Both the position numbers and the translations under genes were made by a program. The notes under the pieces were generated by a model that searched no databases, was not told the origin of the DNA, and saw only the letters and a program-made list of their open reading frames with translations. 64,000 bases of DNA. Source: Chloroflexota bacterium (GTDB taxonomy: Bacteria > Chloroflexota > Anaerolineae > Anaerolineales > Villigracilaceae). Position 1 is the first letter of the stretch. Every line of letters starts with the position of its first letter. The stretch spans positions 310,001 through 374,000 of the forward strand of contig JACRPQ010000004.1 in the NCBI GenBank assembly GCA_016223135.1, in the 5' to 3' direction. Below are positions 15,591 through 21,340 of the stretch, in pieces.

Positions 15591-15878
15591 TTAACCTCCG
15601 CTTGGCAGCCGGCGGGACTTGAAATCCTGTTCGATTCGCTCCTGCAAGAACATTTTGATCAGAGATTGGTATGGCATATCGCGCTCGTTTGCCAATTGGC
15701 GAATGGCATCCAACAGCGATTCGGGCAGGCGCAGTGAGATTGCCTTGGTGGAAGGTTTTAAGTTAGGGAACAGTACACGCTCGGCGCTCTTCCAATCCAG
15801 GTATTCCGATGAATCGTTTTCGCTCCAAAACTCCCGTTCATCGTCTTCATTTTTGAATTTAGGAATTGGCTTGCTCAT
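15591..15878 (-). CDS. brnA: BrnA-like antitoxin (CopG/ribbon-helix-helix)
   Basis: 95 residues. The centre (STKAISLRLPESLLDAIRQL followed by ANERDMPYQSLIKMFL) is a ribbon-helix-helix DNA-binding unit typical of CopG-like antitoxins. It overlaps the upstream toxin gene by 20 bases, the usual brnT-brnA order. The antitoxin is expected to bind BrnT and repress the shared promoter at about 16163-16192. Confidence 0.8.
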   Translation of the reverse strand: MSKPIPKFKNEDDEREFWSENDSSEYLDWKSAERVLFPNLKPSTKAISLRLPESLLDAIRQLANERDMPYQSLIKMFLQERIEQDFKSRRLPSGG

Positions 15879-16158
15879 AGATTTTGCGCTCCTTCTTGCT
15901 CATGTCGCGGGCAGAGATTACGCGGATTTTATCTTTACGGACGGTAAATGCAATAAATAAGCGTCTGCCAGCAATGGTATGACCGAGTGCATAATATCGC
16001 GGTTCATCCTGAGAGTGGGCATCATCGGGCTGGAGCAGGAGGGGCAGGTTGAAGAATACTTCTTCGCATTCGCTTGCCAATACCTCGTGCTTTTCCCAGT
16101 TCTTGTTTCTATTGTTTTCGTCCCAATCAAAGCCAGTGAGCTGACTCAGATCAATCAT
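15859..16158 (-). CDS. brnT: BrnT-like toxin (DUF497 RNase)
   Basis: 99 residues. FDWDENNRNKNWEKH near the N-terminus and RYYALGHTIAGRRLFIAFTV followed by RISARDMSKKERKIYE-like residues match the BrnT/DUF497 RelE-fold ribonucleases. The conserved lysine, arginine and tyrosine set used by BrnT is visible. It is the first gene of a two-gene toxin-antitoxin operon beside the HerA-NurA operon; whether it is part of a defence region or just a passenger is not clear. Confidence 0.85.
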   Translation of the reverse strand: MIDLSQLTGFDWDENNRNKNWEKHEVLASECEEVFFNLPLLLQPDDAHSQDEPRYYALGHTIAGRRLFIAFTVRKDKIRVISARDMSKKERKIYEQANS

Positions 16159-16162
16159 GTGT

Positions 16163-16192
16163 GTATATTATCATAGTATACAACGGGACGTC
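16163..16192 (-). promoter_or_regulatory. Predicted brnTA promoter with operator-like palindrome
   Basis: On the minus strand TTGACG is followed after 16-18 bases by GATAAT/TAATAT just before the toxin ATG. The palindrome GTATA-CTATGATAA-TATAC covers the -10 region, a plausible site for autoregulation by BrnA. Position is by eye. Confidence 0.55.
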
Positions 16193-16196
16193 AAAC

Positions 16197-17900
16197 CTAA
16201 AACCCCAACTCCTTCAAATTTTGTTCCCTGCTCCGTTTTGCCTTCTCTCCCAACAGCTCCTTCCAAAACTTTTCGTCATACCGCCTCGACCGCACCGGCA
16301 GCGGCATGGGGACTCCCCAGCCCAGCAGCAGCACCTCCTCCTTCGGCTGGAGCCGCGCCAACATGCCGCGCAGCGCCTCCCGTCCCGCCAGACCCGAAAG
16401 CACGGCGTGGATGTCGTCCTCGTCGCCCAGCCAGCCGGAGATGCGCGTCCCCAACTGCGACATGACCTCGTCATAGATTTGCGAGGGGCGCTGGTCCACA
16501 ATCAATAGCGTGACGTAATACTTGCGCAGTTCGCGTGCGATGGTTGCAAAGGTTGTTTGCGCCGCCATCTCGCGGTTGAGCAGTTTGTGCGCCTCCTCCA
16601 CCACAATCACCAGCGGGCGCGGCTCCTCCTTGCCGTGCGTTCTAAACGCATTGGTTTTATGCTCCCATGCGTTACGAATTTTGCGCGTCAACAAATTCGA
16701 CACAAGCAAATAGTCCAAATCGGTTTCATGTTCCCCGAACGACAGAATCACATGCTGTCCGTTTTCCAGCGATTGAATAATCTCCTTCACGCTGTCCGCG
16801 GCGGGCTTCTCGACAATGTACGGCTTGTTGAATAATCGCCGCAATTTATCGTGCAGCGCTTCGGCAGCCATCACATTCACGCCGTTCGCGTTCGCCCATG
16901 CCGCCACACTCTCAGGATGCGGCACGCGCTTCACCTTGCCTCTCTCATCCTCAACTTCGATTTCCTCGCGGTTCATTGCCTTGAAACGCGCAAACCAATC
17001 CTCCCGAAACGACGTGTACAACGCGTTCAAGACGGTGGGCGCCGTCTCGCGTAAATTCAGTTCGCGCGTGAGCGTTTCGATATCGCTTGTGGAAATGTCT
17101 CCTGTGGAGATTTCCAGATTAAAGTCCGGGACCTGCCCCCGAATCGTTGACCCTGCTCCCAAGCCGACGATTCGCACCTTCGACTTGAACATGGTCTTCA
17201 ATCCCGTCACGGGCTTTTTCGTGTCTGACGCCACATCGTCAAAGCCATACTCGTTGTGCATATCCAGCACCAACACCGAGGCTTTGTTGTAATGCATCAG
17301 CCCCGCCAGCACCAGCCGCGTGAGAAACGACTTGCCCGTGCCGGTTGCCCCGAACACCCCCGCCGACCGCTGTACAAACTTTTCCAAGTCAATGCACACG
17401 GGATGATTTTGCTCGCGCGTGTACCCGATGACAAAGTTGCCCTTCTCGCCCGGGTTGCCAAAAATCTCCGCAATGTCGCCTTCATTGGCGAGAAATACCT
17501 GAGCGTGATGCGGCGGCACGTTCTTGACCGGCAAGATGCGCGGCTCATCCTTCAACCCCGCATCGATCTTACCGCGCCACTCTTTGTAGGCGGGCGTCCC
17601 CAACTCTGGTCCCACCTCCAGCATCAAATTCGGCAGCACTTCGAGGTTGGCATAGAGCGTCTGCCCCTGCAGCGCCTTGGAGATGTGTGTGGGGAAGCGG
17701 CCCTCCATCTGTTCATCTGCAAAGCGCGGGTCTGTGGCGCCGAGTTGAATATCGGTGACGATGCCATAATAATTCCACTCGCCGCTTTGAATGACCACGA
17801 ACGCCCCCTCCTGAATCTCCTGTGGGGAAACCGTGAGCCTGACGCGGAAGTTTTCCTTCAACCCGCCGCCGACTAAATATCCAATTTTTGTTCTATCCAT
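16197..17900 (-). CDS. herA: HerA-like DNA translocase/helicase ATPase
   Basis: 567 residues. An N-terminal HAS-barrel region (about 1-150) precedes Walker A GATGTGKS (184-191), the LVLDMHNEYG segment, and Walker B VIVVEEAHKL (431-440). LLIVDQRPSQI and GTRISG follow, as in HerA/FtsK-like ring ATPases. HerA hexamers pump DNA and work with the NurA nuclease in end resection; bacterial HerA-nuclease pairs can also act against phages. The start is the ATG at 17900. A NurA gene is three genes upstream on the same strand, so this is a HerA-NurA module. Confidence 0.85.
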   Translation of the reverse strand: MDRTKIGYLVGGGLKENFRVRLTVSPQEIQEGAFVVIQSGEWNYYGIVTDIQLGATDPRFADEQMEGRFPTHISKALQGQTLYANLEVLPNLMLEVGPELGTPAYKEWRGKIDAGLKDEPRILPVKNVPPHHAQVFLANEGDIAEIFGNPGEKGNFVIGYTREQNHPVCIDLEKFVQRSAGVFGATGTGKSFLTRLVLAGLMHYNKASVLVLDMHNEYGFDDVASDTKKPVTGLKTMFKSKVRIVGLGAGSTIRGQVPDFNLEISTGDISTSDIETLTRELNLRETAPTVLNALYTSFREDWFARFKAMNREEIEVEDERGKVKRVPHPESVAAWANANGVNVMAAEALHDKLRRLFNKPYIVEKPAADSVKEIIQSLENGQHVILSFGEHETDLDYLLVSNLLTRKIRNAWEHKTNAFRTHGKEEPRPLVIVVEEAHKLLNREMAAQTTFATIARELRKYYVTLLIVDQRPSQIYDEVMSQLGTRISGWLGDEDDIHAVLSGLAGREALRGMLARLQPKEEVLLLGWGVPMPLPVRSRRYDEKFWKELLGEKAKRSREQNLKELGF

Positions 17901-17916
17901 GATTACCTCTTTTCGA

Positions 17917-17982
17917 CCACAAAGGGTCACTAAGGTTTTAAATCCTTGTTTTTCCTTCGTGCCCCTTTGTGACCCTTAGTGG
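17917..17982. repeat. CCACAAAGGGTCACTAAGG-type palindromic repeat
   Basis: Left arm CCACAAAGGGTCACTAAGG; right arm CCTTCGTGCCCCTTTGTGAC plus CCTTAGTGG. It separates the HAS-barrel gene from herA inside the operon and is related to the element at 8781-8852. Confidence 0.8.
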
Positions 17983-17991
17983 TAGAAAACT

Positions 17992-18588
17992 TTACACACT
18001 CACATCGCTCAACGCGCCCAGCACGGACATTAGAGTCGGATAATCGTCACGCAGCAGCATAATCACTTCATGCGTCGCTGCCTCTTTCCACTTGTTGCTT
18101 TCCGCTCCCCTCGCGCTGCTTGCCTGCAGCAAATGCGCTGCAATGACTTCGCCAATCGGCACATCCTTTGAATTCACGATATGCCTCAAATAGCCCAAGC
18201 GTTCGGTAAAACGCGCCGTGTCTTTCTCGTCGCACAGATAGATCACATCCAAACTCAACGGCGGACGCGGCGGCAGCAAATGGAAAATCCTGCCGTTCTG
18301 CTCATACCCCACCGCCAGCACCGACATTTCCACCGGCACGATGCGGTTGACGCGGTTGTCGTTCATCACCGCCTGGCTGACGTTCTCCGCCGTGACGAGC
18401 TGCCGCACCAGCCCGTCGTCGTCAATGTGGATGTCGTGGATGATGCCGAAGATTTGGTAGCCGCCCCCCAGCGGCGCGCGCACCAGCGCCCCGAAAGAGG
18501 GGGCGTCCAACTGGTTTACGCGGCAGCCGGCGACAAAACCTGTCGTCGCTGCGCGCAGGAGTCGTCCGATTTCGATTTGGTTAGTCAT
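17992..18588 (-). CDS. HAS-barrel-like protein of the HerA-NurA operon
   Basis: 198 residues. The first 90 residues (IGRLLRAATTGFVAGCRVNQ and FGALVRAPLGGGYQIFGIIH) resemble the HAS barrel found at the N-terminus of HerA and F1 ATPases; the rest is helical (EVIAAHLLQAS). It has no P-loop. Its ATG overlaps the stop of the upstream membrane-protein gene as ATGA, with GGAG upstream, which settles the start at 18588. A stand-alone HAS barrel next to HerA suggests an adaptor or assembly factor for the translocase. That role is inferred. Confidence 0.6.
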   Translation of the reverse strand: MTNQIEIGRLLRAATTGFVAGCRVNQLDAPSFGALVRAPLGGGYQIFGIIHDIHIDDDGLVRQLVTAENVSQAVMNDNRVNRIVPVEMSVLAVGYEQNGRIFHLLPPRPPLSLDVIYLCDEKDTARFTERLGYLRHIVNSKDVPIGEVIAAHLLQASSARGAESNKWKEAATHEVIMLLRDDYPTLMSVLGALSDVSV

Positions 18589-19310
18589 TGTTTTCTCCAT
18601 CGTGTGATAAGCCAGTCAATTCCATAAATGATACCCACAAGAGGTATGGAGAAGATAGTAGATGAGAGGATCATGAATAATATTCCACCTGTCCAGCCAA
18701 TAAAATTGTTTCTGGCAAATTCGGCAAGTATGACAGGATGATTCTCTGTTGGCAATGCCGAGTCAATAATCAATGATTTTGAAGGAACGATTAAAGTTGC
18801 TTGGGTTGCTTGACCCTCATTTGATTGTGTATCGGTATTTGCATTTGAGGTGATCAAGATAAAAGTTGTTTTGCCGCGCCACGTCTCTACGTAGACATCC
18901 TTCTCTTTAAACAAATTGCCATTCAGAATATTAACATCTGACTTTGAAGGAATATAAATGTTTTCGATGTCAAAACTGACAAGGTCAGAAGGCACGTTGG
19001 GCAAGACAACAATGATTTCTTCATCCGAATTCTCAATCAACATTTTGAATACATACTTTTCAAAAGAGCCGCTTTCTAATGGAACTCCTTTTGGTCCATA
19101 ATTTGTAAACGACACTTTGCTCGATCCGTAATCTATTATTTCAGCTTCAACAATGTTGCGACAATCAAAGGAAGACGGACATAATCGCTTGTTGTAATCT
19201 GCAAGTGCACTCTCTGCATTTTTCATTCGGAGATAAAGAAATAAAATAAATACAGCATAAACCAATATCCCAAGAAGCAGACCTTCGCCTACTATTTTCT
19301 TCTTAGACAT
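18585..19310 (-). CDS. Two-helix membrane protein of unknown function in the HerA-NurA operon
   Basis: 241 residues. A transmembrane helix near residues 9-27 (LLLGILVYAVFILFLYL), a predicted extracytoplasmic beta-rich domain (about 28-200) and a second helix near 206-232 (GILFMILSSTIFSIPLVGII). No family recognised. The gene is visibly AT-rich compared with its neighbours. It overlaps nurA by 8 bases and the HAS-barrel gene by 4, so it is translated as part of the operon. A membrane component in a NurA-HerA operon is unexpected. Confidence 0.6.
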   Translation of the reverse strand: MSKKKIVGEGLLLGILVYAVFILFLYLRMKNAESALADYNKRLCPSSFDCRNIVEAEIIDYGSSKVSFTNYGPKGVPLESGSFEKYVFKMLIENSDEEIIVVLPNVPSDLVSFDIENIYIPSKSDVNILNGNLFKEKDVYVETWRGKTTFILITSNANTDTQSNEGQATQATLIVPSKSLIIDSALPTENHPVILAEFARNNFIGWTGGILFMILSSTIFSIPLVGIIYGIDWLITRWRKQ

Positions 19311-20490
19311 ACTTATTTCTCCCGCCTAAATCCTTTGCGGACTGTTTGTACGAACCGTCATCCACATCTTCCTTGTGTTTGCGGAGTTCCATCGTCAGCA
19401 ACTGTTCAATCTGCTGTTTCTCTTCGTTCTTGACCACTGCCGTCTCATGCGCGCGATGGAGCAAATACGGATACGGTCGGCTCCCCATCATCCTGCATTG
19501 CTCGACCAGAACCGCGTGGAGCAAATCCAGTTTCTCTTTGTCGTCTGCCACCCACTTGGGGACCTCAACGCGCACGGGCCACGGATGCCCCGGCGTGCCG
19601 ACGTTCAGGTAGAAGAAGTGCAGAGATAAAACCCCCGTGTAGCGCTTTTCTGAACTGGATTGTATTCTGAACACTGCCGAACGATGACCGGGCGGCAGCA
19701 GCGGTTTTTCTCGCGCGCCATACAGCCAGCGGTCGCTCACCCCGCGCAGGGGATGGAACTCGCGCAGATGTTGTATTTGTTCGCTGTCTGCCATGGCGAT
19801 TTCGAGCAGGCGCACCACCAGGTCGGCGGAGGGCTTGTCCACGTAGCCGGCGGTGACAACGCCGCGCGATTGCAGGCGGGAGAGCACGCCTTTGTATTTT
19901 TCAATGAAGTCTTCATAGGCGCTGGCGTCTTCGCCTTTGGCGCTCCATAACTCGATGGGACCATCGGTGAAGGTGACCACCGCCCCTTCTATACCTTTTG
20001 ATAATTCGTCCAGTTTTTGGCGCTCGGCGAGGTCGCGCCGCAGGGCAACCATGCCTTCAGACATGGGGATGCCGTTGGGGAGCAGGTCATCGCCGTAGAG
20101 CAGGACGCTTTCGGTCTCGGTCAGCGGCGCTGCGCTGGAATTTGCCTGCATGACGATTGCGCCAACGTTGACCAGCCCGAACTGCACCGCGGCGTGACGG
20201 TCTGGGTTGATTTGGGAACCGTCGGCGGCGATGAGGGTTGGGGAAACAGAAACAGGCTGAACGTCGAAGGAAGAGGCGAGCGCTTCCTCGAGGGGATAGG
20301 CGCAGCGCAGGTTGGGATCCGCCTCTTTGGCTGAATCCACTTTGGAGCGCAGGTAGTCCAGTTGGGTGTTGAAGGAGGCGAGCGCTTCCCGCGCTTGCGC
20401 CTGCGCTTCTTCCTTTCTCTTTCGCCTTTCCTGTGCGCCTGCGCCAATGGCGCGAATTTGGGAGTGGATTTCCTGATAGTTGATGGGCAT
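19303..20490 (-). CDS. nurA: NurA domain nuclease
   Basis: 395 residues. NurA landmarks: IAADGSQI (Asp90), TFTDGPIELW (Asp176, Glu180), and a C-terminal RPYPYLLHRAHETAVV containing the conserved His. A helical N-terminus (about 1-60) precedes the RNase H-like core. In archaea NurA forms a dimer docked on the HerA hexamer and degrades DNA 5'-3'. Here it is the first gene of the operon leading to HerA. Whether it serves repair or phage defence is not visible from sequence. Confidence 0.8.
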   Translation of the reverse strand: MPINYQEIHSQIRAIGAGAQERRKRKEEAQAQAREALASFNTQLDYLRSKVDSAKEADPNLRCAYPLEEALASSFDVQPVSVSPTLIAADGSQINPDRHAAVQFGLVNVGAIVMQANSSAAPLTETESVLLYGDDLLPNGIPMSEGMVALRRDLAERQKLDELSKGIEGAVVTFTDGPIELWSAKGEDASAYEDFIEKYKGVLSRLQSRGVVTAGYVDKPSADLVVRLLEIAMADSEQIQHLREFHPLRGVSDRWLYGAREKPLLPPGHRSAVFRIQSSSEKRYTGVLSLHFFYLNVGTPGHPWPVRVEVPKWVADDKEKLDLLHAVLVEQCRMMGSRPYPYLLHRAHETAVVKNEEKQQIEQLLTMELRKHKEDVDDGSYKQSAKDLGGRNKYV

Positions 20491-20611
20491 GGCATCCCCT
20501 TTGGGGATAGAACAAATGTGTCAGGATTGTACCAAAAATTGGGGAAAATGCAGGAACTTTCCATGCCTGCCATCGTCTTACCTGCGTAAAATCATCAACA
20601 AGGAGTTGACC

Positions 20612-21340
20612 ATGAAAACCAAGTTTTATCTCGTTGCTGTTGTTGCCCTGCTTGCGCTGGTCGTCAGCGCTTGTGGGACGACTGCTGTCAGCCAGGCGTC
20701 ACAGCCGCCGCTGCGCACCATCAGCGTTTCGGGCGCAGGGACCGCCTATCTTGTGCCGGATATTGCCTACATTTACGTGGGCGTGCACACGGAGAACCCT
20801 TCCGCTTCGGAGGCGGTGAATCAGAACAATGCCCAAACCCAGAAGATGATCGAGGCGCTGCGCAATTTTGGGATTGATGCCAAGGATATTCGCACGACGA
20901 ATTTCAGCATCTATCCCTTCGACAAGTATGACCCGGCTACGGGCGCCTCGACCGGCGAAAAGTATTACGCGGTGGATAACACCGTCTATGTGACGGTGCG
21001 CGAGCTGGATAAACTCGGCGAATTGCTCGATACCGTCATTGCGGCGGGCGCCAACACCGTCAACAGCGTGCAGTTCGATGTGGCGAACAAGGACGAGGCG
21101 CTCAAGCAAGCCCGCGCCGATGCCGTGAAGGACGCTGAAGTTAAAGCGCGCGAACTGGCGGACGCTGCAGGCGTTGCCATTGGCGAAGTTCAAAACATCA
21201 GTTTCCAGGACAGCGTGTATTACCCCATGATGGACGGCAGGGGCGGTGGTGGGGCGGCTTCGGAAGCGGCGGCTGTGCCGATCCAGCCTGGGCAGTTGAC
21301 CTTTACCGTGACCGTCAATGTGACCTACGAAATCAAGTAA
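20612..21340 (+). CDS. SIMPL (DUF541) domain lipoprotein
   Basis: 242 residues. A lipoprotein signal ends at lipobox VVSAC (Cys21). The SIMPL domain follows: ISVSGAGTAYLVPDIAYIYV, a central TQKMIEALRNFGIDAKDIRT region, and RADAVKDAEVKARELADAAG. The family (YggE/BP26) forms oligomeric rings in the envelope, with proposed stress or channel-like roles. GGAG 6 bases upstream fixes the start at 20612. It is divergent from nurA, with about 120 bases between them as a shared promoter region. A terminator follows. Confidence 0.85.
   Translation: MKTKFYLVAVVALLALVVSACGTTAVSQASQPPLRTISVSGAGTAYLVPDIAYIYVGVHTENPSASEAVNQNNAQTQKMIEALRNFGIDAKDIRTTNFSIYPFDKYDPATGASTGEKYYAVDNTVYVTVRELDKLGELLDTVIAAGANTVNSVQFDVANKDEALKQARADAVKDAEVKARELADAAGVAIGEVQNISFQDSVYYPMMDGRGGGGAASEAAAVPIQPGQLTFTVTVNVTYEIK

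Follow-up and report, generated by a model that had tools for sequence, protein, structure and literature searches.

The NurA-HerA end-resection complex, known from archaea and from Deinococcus radiodurans, draws its nuclease and its translocase from one operon, and in the D. radiodurans complex the HAS barrel domains of HerA contact NurA (PMC9960219, in the part of the paper available). ATPases of the HerA family also occur in the HerA-SIR2 and HerA-DUF4297 anti-phage complexes. For restriction-modification systems, insertion with long target duplication of variable length has been reported (PMC3874152 and PMC3031569, each available in part). Here, these systems are compared with an operon in a stretch of 64,000 nucleotides from a Chloroflexota bacterium (Anaerolineales, Villigracilaceae; assembly GCA_016223135.1, contig JACRPQ010000004.1, forward-strand positions 310,001 to 374,000), referred to as the window in its full length. 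The working unit of this operon is a trio consisting of the NurA nuclease, a stand-alone HAS-barrel protein and the HerA DNA translocase, and the membrane-protein gene within it and the toxin-antitoxin (TA) pair behind it are passengers. Taken together, we consider it probable that the locus comprises a conserved trio with passenger genes, and that TA modules have been inserted behind herA with long, variable target duplication.

Across 41 genomes of the window's order, NurA was found in 37, the HAS protein in 36 and HerA in 38. Three genomes (G028, G034, and G038) are without all three genes, the missing members coincide with contig ends in G009 and G014, and in G027 HerA is matched weakly (E 6e-4), with the HAS gene close to the end of a contig; G021, G030, and G037 have herA on another contig, nurA and the HAS gene staying together. 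Gene order was followed in 102 loci, left once 18 of the 40 region loci, being identical to loci of the genome_contigs set, had been removed; the 80 loci of that set are the best 80 of 309, so that the sample leans to close relatives, and some of the 102 are second contigs of one genome. The nurA and HAS genes keep the same order and strand in all 94 loci that hold both, which is beyond chance; the HAS gene and herA share a locus and strand in 80 loci, of which 24 have them no more than 250 base pairs (bp) apart. In the window the trio lies on one strand with short gaps or overlaps, and NurA-domain and HerA-domain proteins are thus encoded in one operon. Spearman coefficients are 0.61–0.65 among the operon genes, 0.28–0.57 between these and three upstream neighbors, and 0.70–0.81 among the neighbors themselves; because the pairs are not independent, no significance is claimed for these figures. 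Three loci of the window's genus (L113, L141, and L112) encode a NurA with about 50% identity to that of the window though their HerA shares 91% identity, as though two alleles of nurA were in circulation.

The HAS protein sets this operon apart from the NurA-HerA end-resection complex, as do the passengers in its gaps. The match of the HAS protein to PF09378 falls below the Pfam cut-off (E 0.035) and comparing its profile with that of the HerA N-terminus gives a weak result (probability 9.9, E 0.003), yet its predicted structure (predicted local distance difference test score, pLDDT, of 83.1, from 32 sequences) aligns with HerA chains in VIA-align at Z 11.0 (9c1m), 9.9 (Deinococcus HerA, 7wrx) and 9.7 (Sulfolobus, 4d2i). 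These values are for the N-terminal parts of the best HerA chains, over 100–129 residues; ATP synthase subunits follow at Z 7.6–9.1, and Foldseek returns E values down to 7e-6. On the strength of this model, and despite the sub-threshold Pfam match and the weak profile comparison, the protein is taken to be a genuine HerA-type barrel, and the stand-alone HAS barrel that had been proposed between NurA and HerA from an initial reading of the window is borne out by the predicted fold. A recent duplication of the herA 5′ end was considered as its source, a possibility to which the weak profile comparison also applies. Since the HAS domains of Deinococcus HerA contact NurA, the protein would most likely serve as an adaptor between NurA and HerA in DNA-end processing, and its co-inheritance with both suggests a third subunit of a bacterial end-resection machine. 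No paper on an operon with a stand-alone HAS gene was found among open-licence papers, which is no proof of absence.

TA genes are enriched behind herA. TA-type open reading frames (ORFs) account for 46 of the 151 that start within 1.5 kb behind herA, as opposed to 5 of 147 at 4–7 kb, a control stretch of 3 kb. The 46 ORFs fall into ten sequence clusters, named from Pfam matches or by reading, and are spread over 24 loci, with 44 in the operon direction. ORFs were called with an in-house codon-usage script that missed some passengers, such as most of the window's membrane gene. Pfam tallies covered 147 of the 151 ORFs behind herA, 81 of 86 in the two operon gaps and 124 of 145 control ORFs, excluding those shorter than 50 amino acids (aa) and those cut by or touching a locus end. 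Behind herA these gave CopG_antitoxin (9), PIN_3 (7), BrnT (6), MazE-type (6), PIN (5), nucleotidyltransferase (4), and PhdYeFM (3), while PIN (3) was the sole TA-type family among the 25 shown for the controls. A DarT gene follows herA in L111.

The second feature of this flank is the presence of displaced copies of the herA end. A gene's own 3′-end fragment recurs within 4 kb downstream for herA in 10 of 66 cases, for the HAS gene in 1 of 83, for nurA in 0 of 86, and for other genes in 3 of 681, the last after exclusion of 12 near-full paralogs. When all herA ends served as queries in a more sensitive search, such remnants appeared in 18 of 72 loci; they are 71–98.5% identical to the intact end, mostly diverged, and clearly closest to the herA end of their own genome in 7 of 17 cases. 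Where modules are stacked, remnants (tails) stand between them: herA, BrnT-CopG, tail, AbrB-PIN, tail in L113; herA, AbrB-PIN, tail, CopG, tail on a second contig of G013, which begins inside herA; and herA, BrnTA, tail, AbrB-PIN, tail in G022. Flanking direct repeats, counted with eleven clusters, were found at 15 of the 24 TA loci behind herA. A short palindrome of the CCCGC...GCGGG type lies in or beside the herA-tail remnants of L074 (the second contig of G013), L166, and L113, in frame in two of them. L140, where herA is 68% identical, had been considered a case of a foreign herA with a resident remnant; this was rejected, as the remnant is 98.5% identical to its own herA over 66 bp.

Because the same signature appears at many BrnT modules elsewhere, it reflects the entry of TA modules into these chromosomes, and not a function of HerA. 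Direct repeats of 21–196 bp flank 22 of 51 BrnT modules outside the operon, compared with 14 of 209 small control ORFs, searched 600 bp upstream and 900 bp downstream (L211 was omitted from the BrnT sample as a duplicate of L205). Nine of the 14 repeat-positive control ORFs themselves carry TA-type Pfam matches (HicB, RHH, PIN, nucleotidyltransferase, HEPN, Phd, PIN, ParE, and a helix-turn-helix gene beside ParE), and the repeat-negative controls, scanned for 140 of 195, gave no TA family among the 25 families shown, small families lying outside these. At BrnT modules the repeated sequence matches the end of rpoD in G012 (68 bp, 91%), of ffh in G007 (67 bp, 99%), of an aminotransferase gene in G015 (49 bp), and of an R3H/ATPase-like gene in G008 (29 bp), these names resting on a reading of the protein sequences. 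Among 25 genomes searched, gene-end remnants were found for ffh in 6 and for rpoD in 2, and of 6 such remnants compared with gene ends, 5 were most similar to the end in their own genome; this comparison took in plus-strand loci, did not include G004, G007, G012, and G013, and dropped L272 (a repeat of L251) and L294 (two pieces of one gene). For herA, rpoD, and ffh alike there are relatives that lack remnants, none of them forming a strain-level pair. In L298, L300, and L205, three genomes belonging to two genera, a BrnT module also stands at the seeming 3′ end of the same R3H/ATPase-like gene, with repeats of 111, 113, and 29 bp. In L277 (1991-2095) and L278 (1991-2091), a palindromic-looking repeat of about 100 bp, with no TA gene, separates the intact end of ffh from its remnant.

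The sequence of events that we propose is as follows. The operon gaps and the herA 3′ flank have received genes that vary from lineage to lineage, mostly in the operon direction. The TA modules behind herA are often enclosed by its intact end and another copy of that end in decay, which would amount to insertion with long, variable target duplication, and one insertion could follow another to give stacked modules. The duplications would arise at insertion, either through break repair or through one-sided homologous recombination combined with an illegitimate join, and the BrnT/CopG pair of the window may have arrived by the same route. A broader proposal, possible in our view but doubtful, is that TA modules of this bacterial family are mobile units that insert at the 3′ ends of genes that are conserved and probably essential, duplicate 20–200 bp while leaving the gene intact, and pile up into cassette arrays free of integrase, the herA 3′ end being one hotspot; such a mode has yet to be described for TA modules. 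No paper on TA modules with long target duplication was found among open-licence papers, a search that cannot prove absence.

A number of results weigh against this interpretation. The loci are related to one another and their counts are not independent; 9 of the 24 TA loci behind herA and 29 of the 51 BrnT modules elsewhere have no repeat; and in the window itself the herA end was found to share no significant repeat with the sequence that follows the antitoxin gene, where a repeat may have decayed. Three of the ten herA 3′-end fragments (G023, G029, and L159), and several of the remnants in the 18 loci, are 25–40 bp long. The 22 repeats at BrnT modules are not all clearly gene ends: a script links 12 to a nearby gene 3′ end, about 8 of which were judged convincing, and others (e.g., L200, L214, and L220) look like dispersed intergenic repeats. 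The contrast with the control ORFs is flattered, because these come partly from more distant genomes in which the signature is rarer. At BrnT loci of other families of the phylum, repeats were found in 3 of 21, against 5 of 8 in the window's family, in a sample whose loci were not oriented to the BrnT strand, in which one locus was too short and in which four of the eight same-family loci (L299, L301, L304, and L310) repeat places of the 51-module sample. One of the three, L324, is flanked by a perfect 25-bp repeat resembling the 3′ end of a tRNA, as would suit an integrase element. Within the operon, the lack of any nurA 3′-end remnant leaves the passengers between nurA and the HAS gene, the membrane protein included, without an insertion signature. 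Repeats surround 14 of 23 GxxExxY (PDDEXK_3) genes in the HAS/herA gap and 0 of 10 copies outside the operon; the idea that these genes are cassettes of the same kind was dropped, and their repeats may be a dispersed intergenic repeat.

The remnants could also be the resident gene ends themselves. In one-sided homologous recombination, or homology-facilitated illegitimate recombination, a donor gene end with its TA neighbor recombines within the gene and joins illegitimately beyond it, so that the intact end is the newcomer and the resident end is left as the remnant. This is a serious possibility, if not the account we favor, and it is compatible with insertion by target duplication as set out above. 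The remnants of L164 and L153 clearly, and those of L142 and L159 less clearly, are nearer the herA ends of other genomes (that of L164 is 86% identical over 236 bp to L156, and 71% over 63 bp to its own herA), and the operon genes track each other better than they track their upstream neighbors, as frequent allele exchange would give. Against this stand the rpoD and ffh remnants, which are mostly nearest their own gene ends and nearly identical to them in G007, as well as the seven herA remnants that match their own genome best; such own-end matches fit duplication of the resident end, or else a donor of the same species. That the remnants are assembly artifacts is scarcely credible: most of the named loci are titled as metagenome-assembled genomes and some contigs end inside the region, but the remnants are mostly diverged, occur in many separate assemblies, and include that of rpoD in G012, a one-contig genome.

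Other readings give the passengers a function in the operon. The original prediction was of a NurA-HerA machine encoded by four genes, anchored in the membrane and degrading phage DNA as it enters, which we now regard as very improbable. The overlapping reading frames (8 bp between the membrane gene and nurA, 16 bp between the HAS gene and the membrane gene) suggest translational coupling, and the four-gene order does recur, the membrane gene occupying the nurA/HAS gap in 5 of the 94 loci (the window, L128, where its frame is broken, L152, L154, and L175). The homologs in L152, L154, and L175, however, are 16–32% identical to the window's protein, and the gene turned up in 1 genome of the order in a set of 41 and again in 1 in a set of 301, in both cases the window's own, the larger search being one that could miss homologs as divergent as these. 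The gap exceeds 250 bp in 18 of the 94 loci and elsewhere holds glyoxalase, SH3, DUF6199, or DUF3592 genes and, by reading of the sequence, an acetyltransferase-like and an AbrB-type gene, with all 18 passenger ORFs co-directional with the operon; the membrane protein is one passenger among several. It has no Pfam or PADLOC match; in a model of low confidence (pLDDT 58.7, built from 4 sequences), long helices form both ends of the protein and beta strands lie in the middle. Because the gene is rare and replaceable, the four-part machine was rejected as the leading account; of the two middle genes, the HAS gene belongs to the conserved set, and a working role for the membrane gene, which was not found in 300 of 301 genomes, is not supported. 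The part of the prediction that finds support is the conserved NurA/HAS/HerA set. No evidence emerged for an anti-phage system anchored in the membrane, or for any link of the set to phage defense: the PADLOC matches fall on HerA (HerA-type ATPase models, mad8, and two weak models), with nothing for NurA, the HAS protein or the membrane protein. It also seems unlikely that the trio is the constant core of a modular defense system with TA and other passengers as exchangeable effectors. Such a system would accord with the largely co-directional passengers, with passenger families linked to conflict systems (DarT in L111, PIN, nucleotidyltransferase, and others), and with the pairing of HerA with effectors in known defense complexes; many of the best fold matches of the HAS protein are HerA chains of the HerA-SIR2 and HerA-DUF4297 complexes (8wld, 8ziq, and 8xav). 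The trio, in contrast to those systems, is near-universal in the order sample and not patchy, PADLOC names no partner protein and finds no match to SIR2 or DUF4297 models among the eight window proteins scanned, the window's brnT has its own promoter-like site, and BrnT modules with the same signature stand behind rpoD, ffh, and other unrelated genes. That a toxin gene adjoins a repair operon does not in itself make it part of that operon.

Several known systems resemble the TA insertions proposed here. Insertion of restriction-modification systems with long target duplication was reportedly described by Nobusato et al. in 2000 and Furuta et al. in 2010. The likeness lies in the direct repeats of variable length that flank the modules here (22 of 51 BrnT modules and 15 of 24 TA loci behind herA), and the differences in the cargo, which consists of type II TA modules of several families, in their frequent position at the 3′ ends of herA, rpoD, and ffh, and in the stacking of several modules. 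In polymorphic toxin loci such as those of contact-dependent inhibition (CDI) and Rhs, old 3′ ends of a conserved gene come to lie downstream through recombination within it. Old gene ends are similarly left downstream here, but the modules are not C-terminal tips of a conserved protein. Integron cassette arrays can carry TA cassettes, and share with the present arrays the stacking of TA modules in one direction, whereas the repeats here are local copies of host gene ends that differ by site. TA cassettes of integrons are mentioned in PMC2654758 (available in part). It has long been asked how the TA modules of chromosomes move when no mobile element is evident, and TA pairs lying between two copies of a gene end would provide a testable trace of their spread between chromosomes. 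Should long target duplication at core-gene ends be the way in which TA modules enter, each remnant would date and orient an insertion, the duplicated gene end would make loss of the module by recombination precise, and a pile-up would record successive gains and losses.

Turning to the window itself, the four genes of the original prediction were all recovered at the positions it had given, both in the ORF list and with Pfam where a match exists (Table 1). The pair behind herA had been called BrnTA; the toxin is indeed BrnT, but the antitoxin is of the CopG type, its match to BrnA having an E value of 0.1. It was this downstream pair that proved informative. By reading of the sequence, the true start of herA is likely the ATG at 17900 and that of the SIMPL-domain gene the ATG at 20612. 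In 64 of 79 loci, the 3 kb upstream of nurA contain a member of the SIMPL-domain cluster. Promoter-like sites, as matches to a consensus only, number 13 between 15400 and 20800, compared with 4.0 expected.

Table 1. Genes and sites of the nurA-herA operon and its flanks, with window coordinates.
Feature	Coordinates	Strand	Evidence
CopG-type antitoxin gene paired with brnT	15591-15878	-	PF12441, E 1.2e-34
brnT toxin gene, passenger behind herA	15859-16158	-	PF04365, E 1.1e-25
Promoter-like site in the 38-base herA/brnT gap	16167-16194	-	10/12 consensus matches; consensus match only
herA, HerA-family DNA translocase, 577 aa as listed	16197-17930	-	PF01935, E 1.6e-28
Stand-alone HAS-barrel protein, 202 aa, with C-terminal helical part	17992-18600	-	Fold match to HerA N-terminal regions
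Passenger membrane protein, 241 aa, in the nurA/HAS gap	18585-19310	-	No Pfam/PADLOC match
nurA, nuclease of the NurA family, 395 aa, opening the conserved trio	19303-20490	-	PF09376, E 1e-18
Divergent SIMPL-domain gene, usual neighbor upstream of nurA	20612-21340	+	PF04402, E 3.6e-56 for ORF 20480-21340

The gap between the HAS gene and herA also receives passengers, being longer than 250 bp in 56 of the 80 loci, with 64 of its 68 passenger ORFs in the operon direction. The 81 ORFs tallied for the two operon gaps include PDDEXK_3 (22), 23S_rRNA_IVP (6), GT87 (5), metallophosphoesterase (4), and glyoxalase (4) genes; PDDEXK_3 genes are scattered over the rest of the genome as well, with at least one in 37 of 41 genomes. 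The four-helix genes of the HAS/herA gap have a flanking repeat in 0 of 6 cases. An automatic search flagged remnants of the herA 5′ end in this gap in 3 of 78 cases, as against 3 of 740 for other genes; the copies in L156 and L162 are clear and short, that in G023 weak. The L156 copy (codons 13-39) lies between two similar multi-helix membrane proteins encoded in tandem (L156:10573-13667), one of which falls in a cluster labeled DUF6056-like by reading. A metallophosphoesterase gene recurs between the HAS gene and herA in four genomes (L119, L127, L133, and L171).

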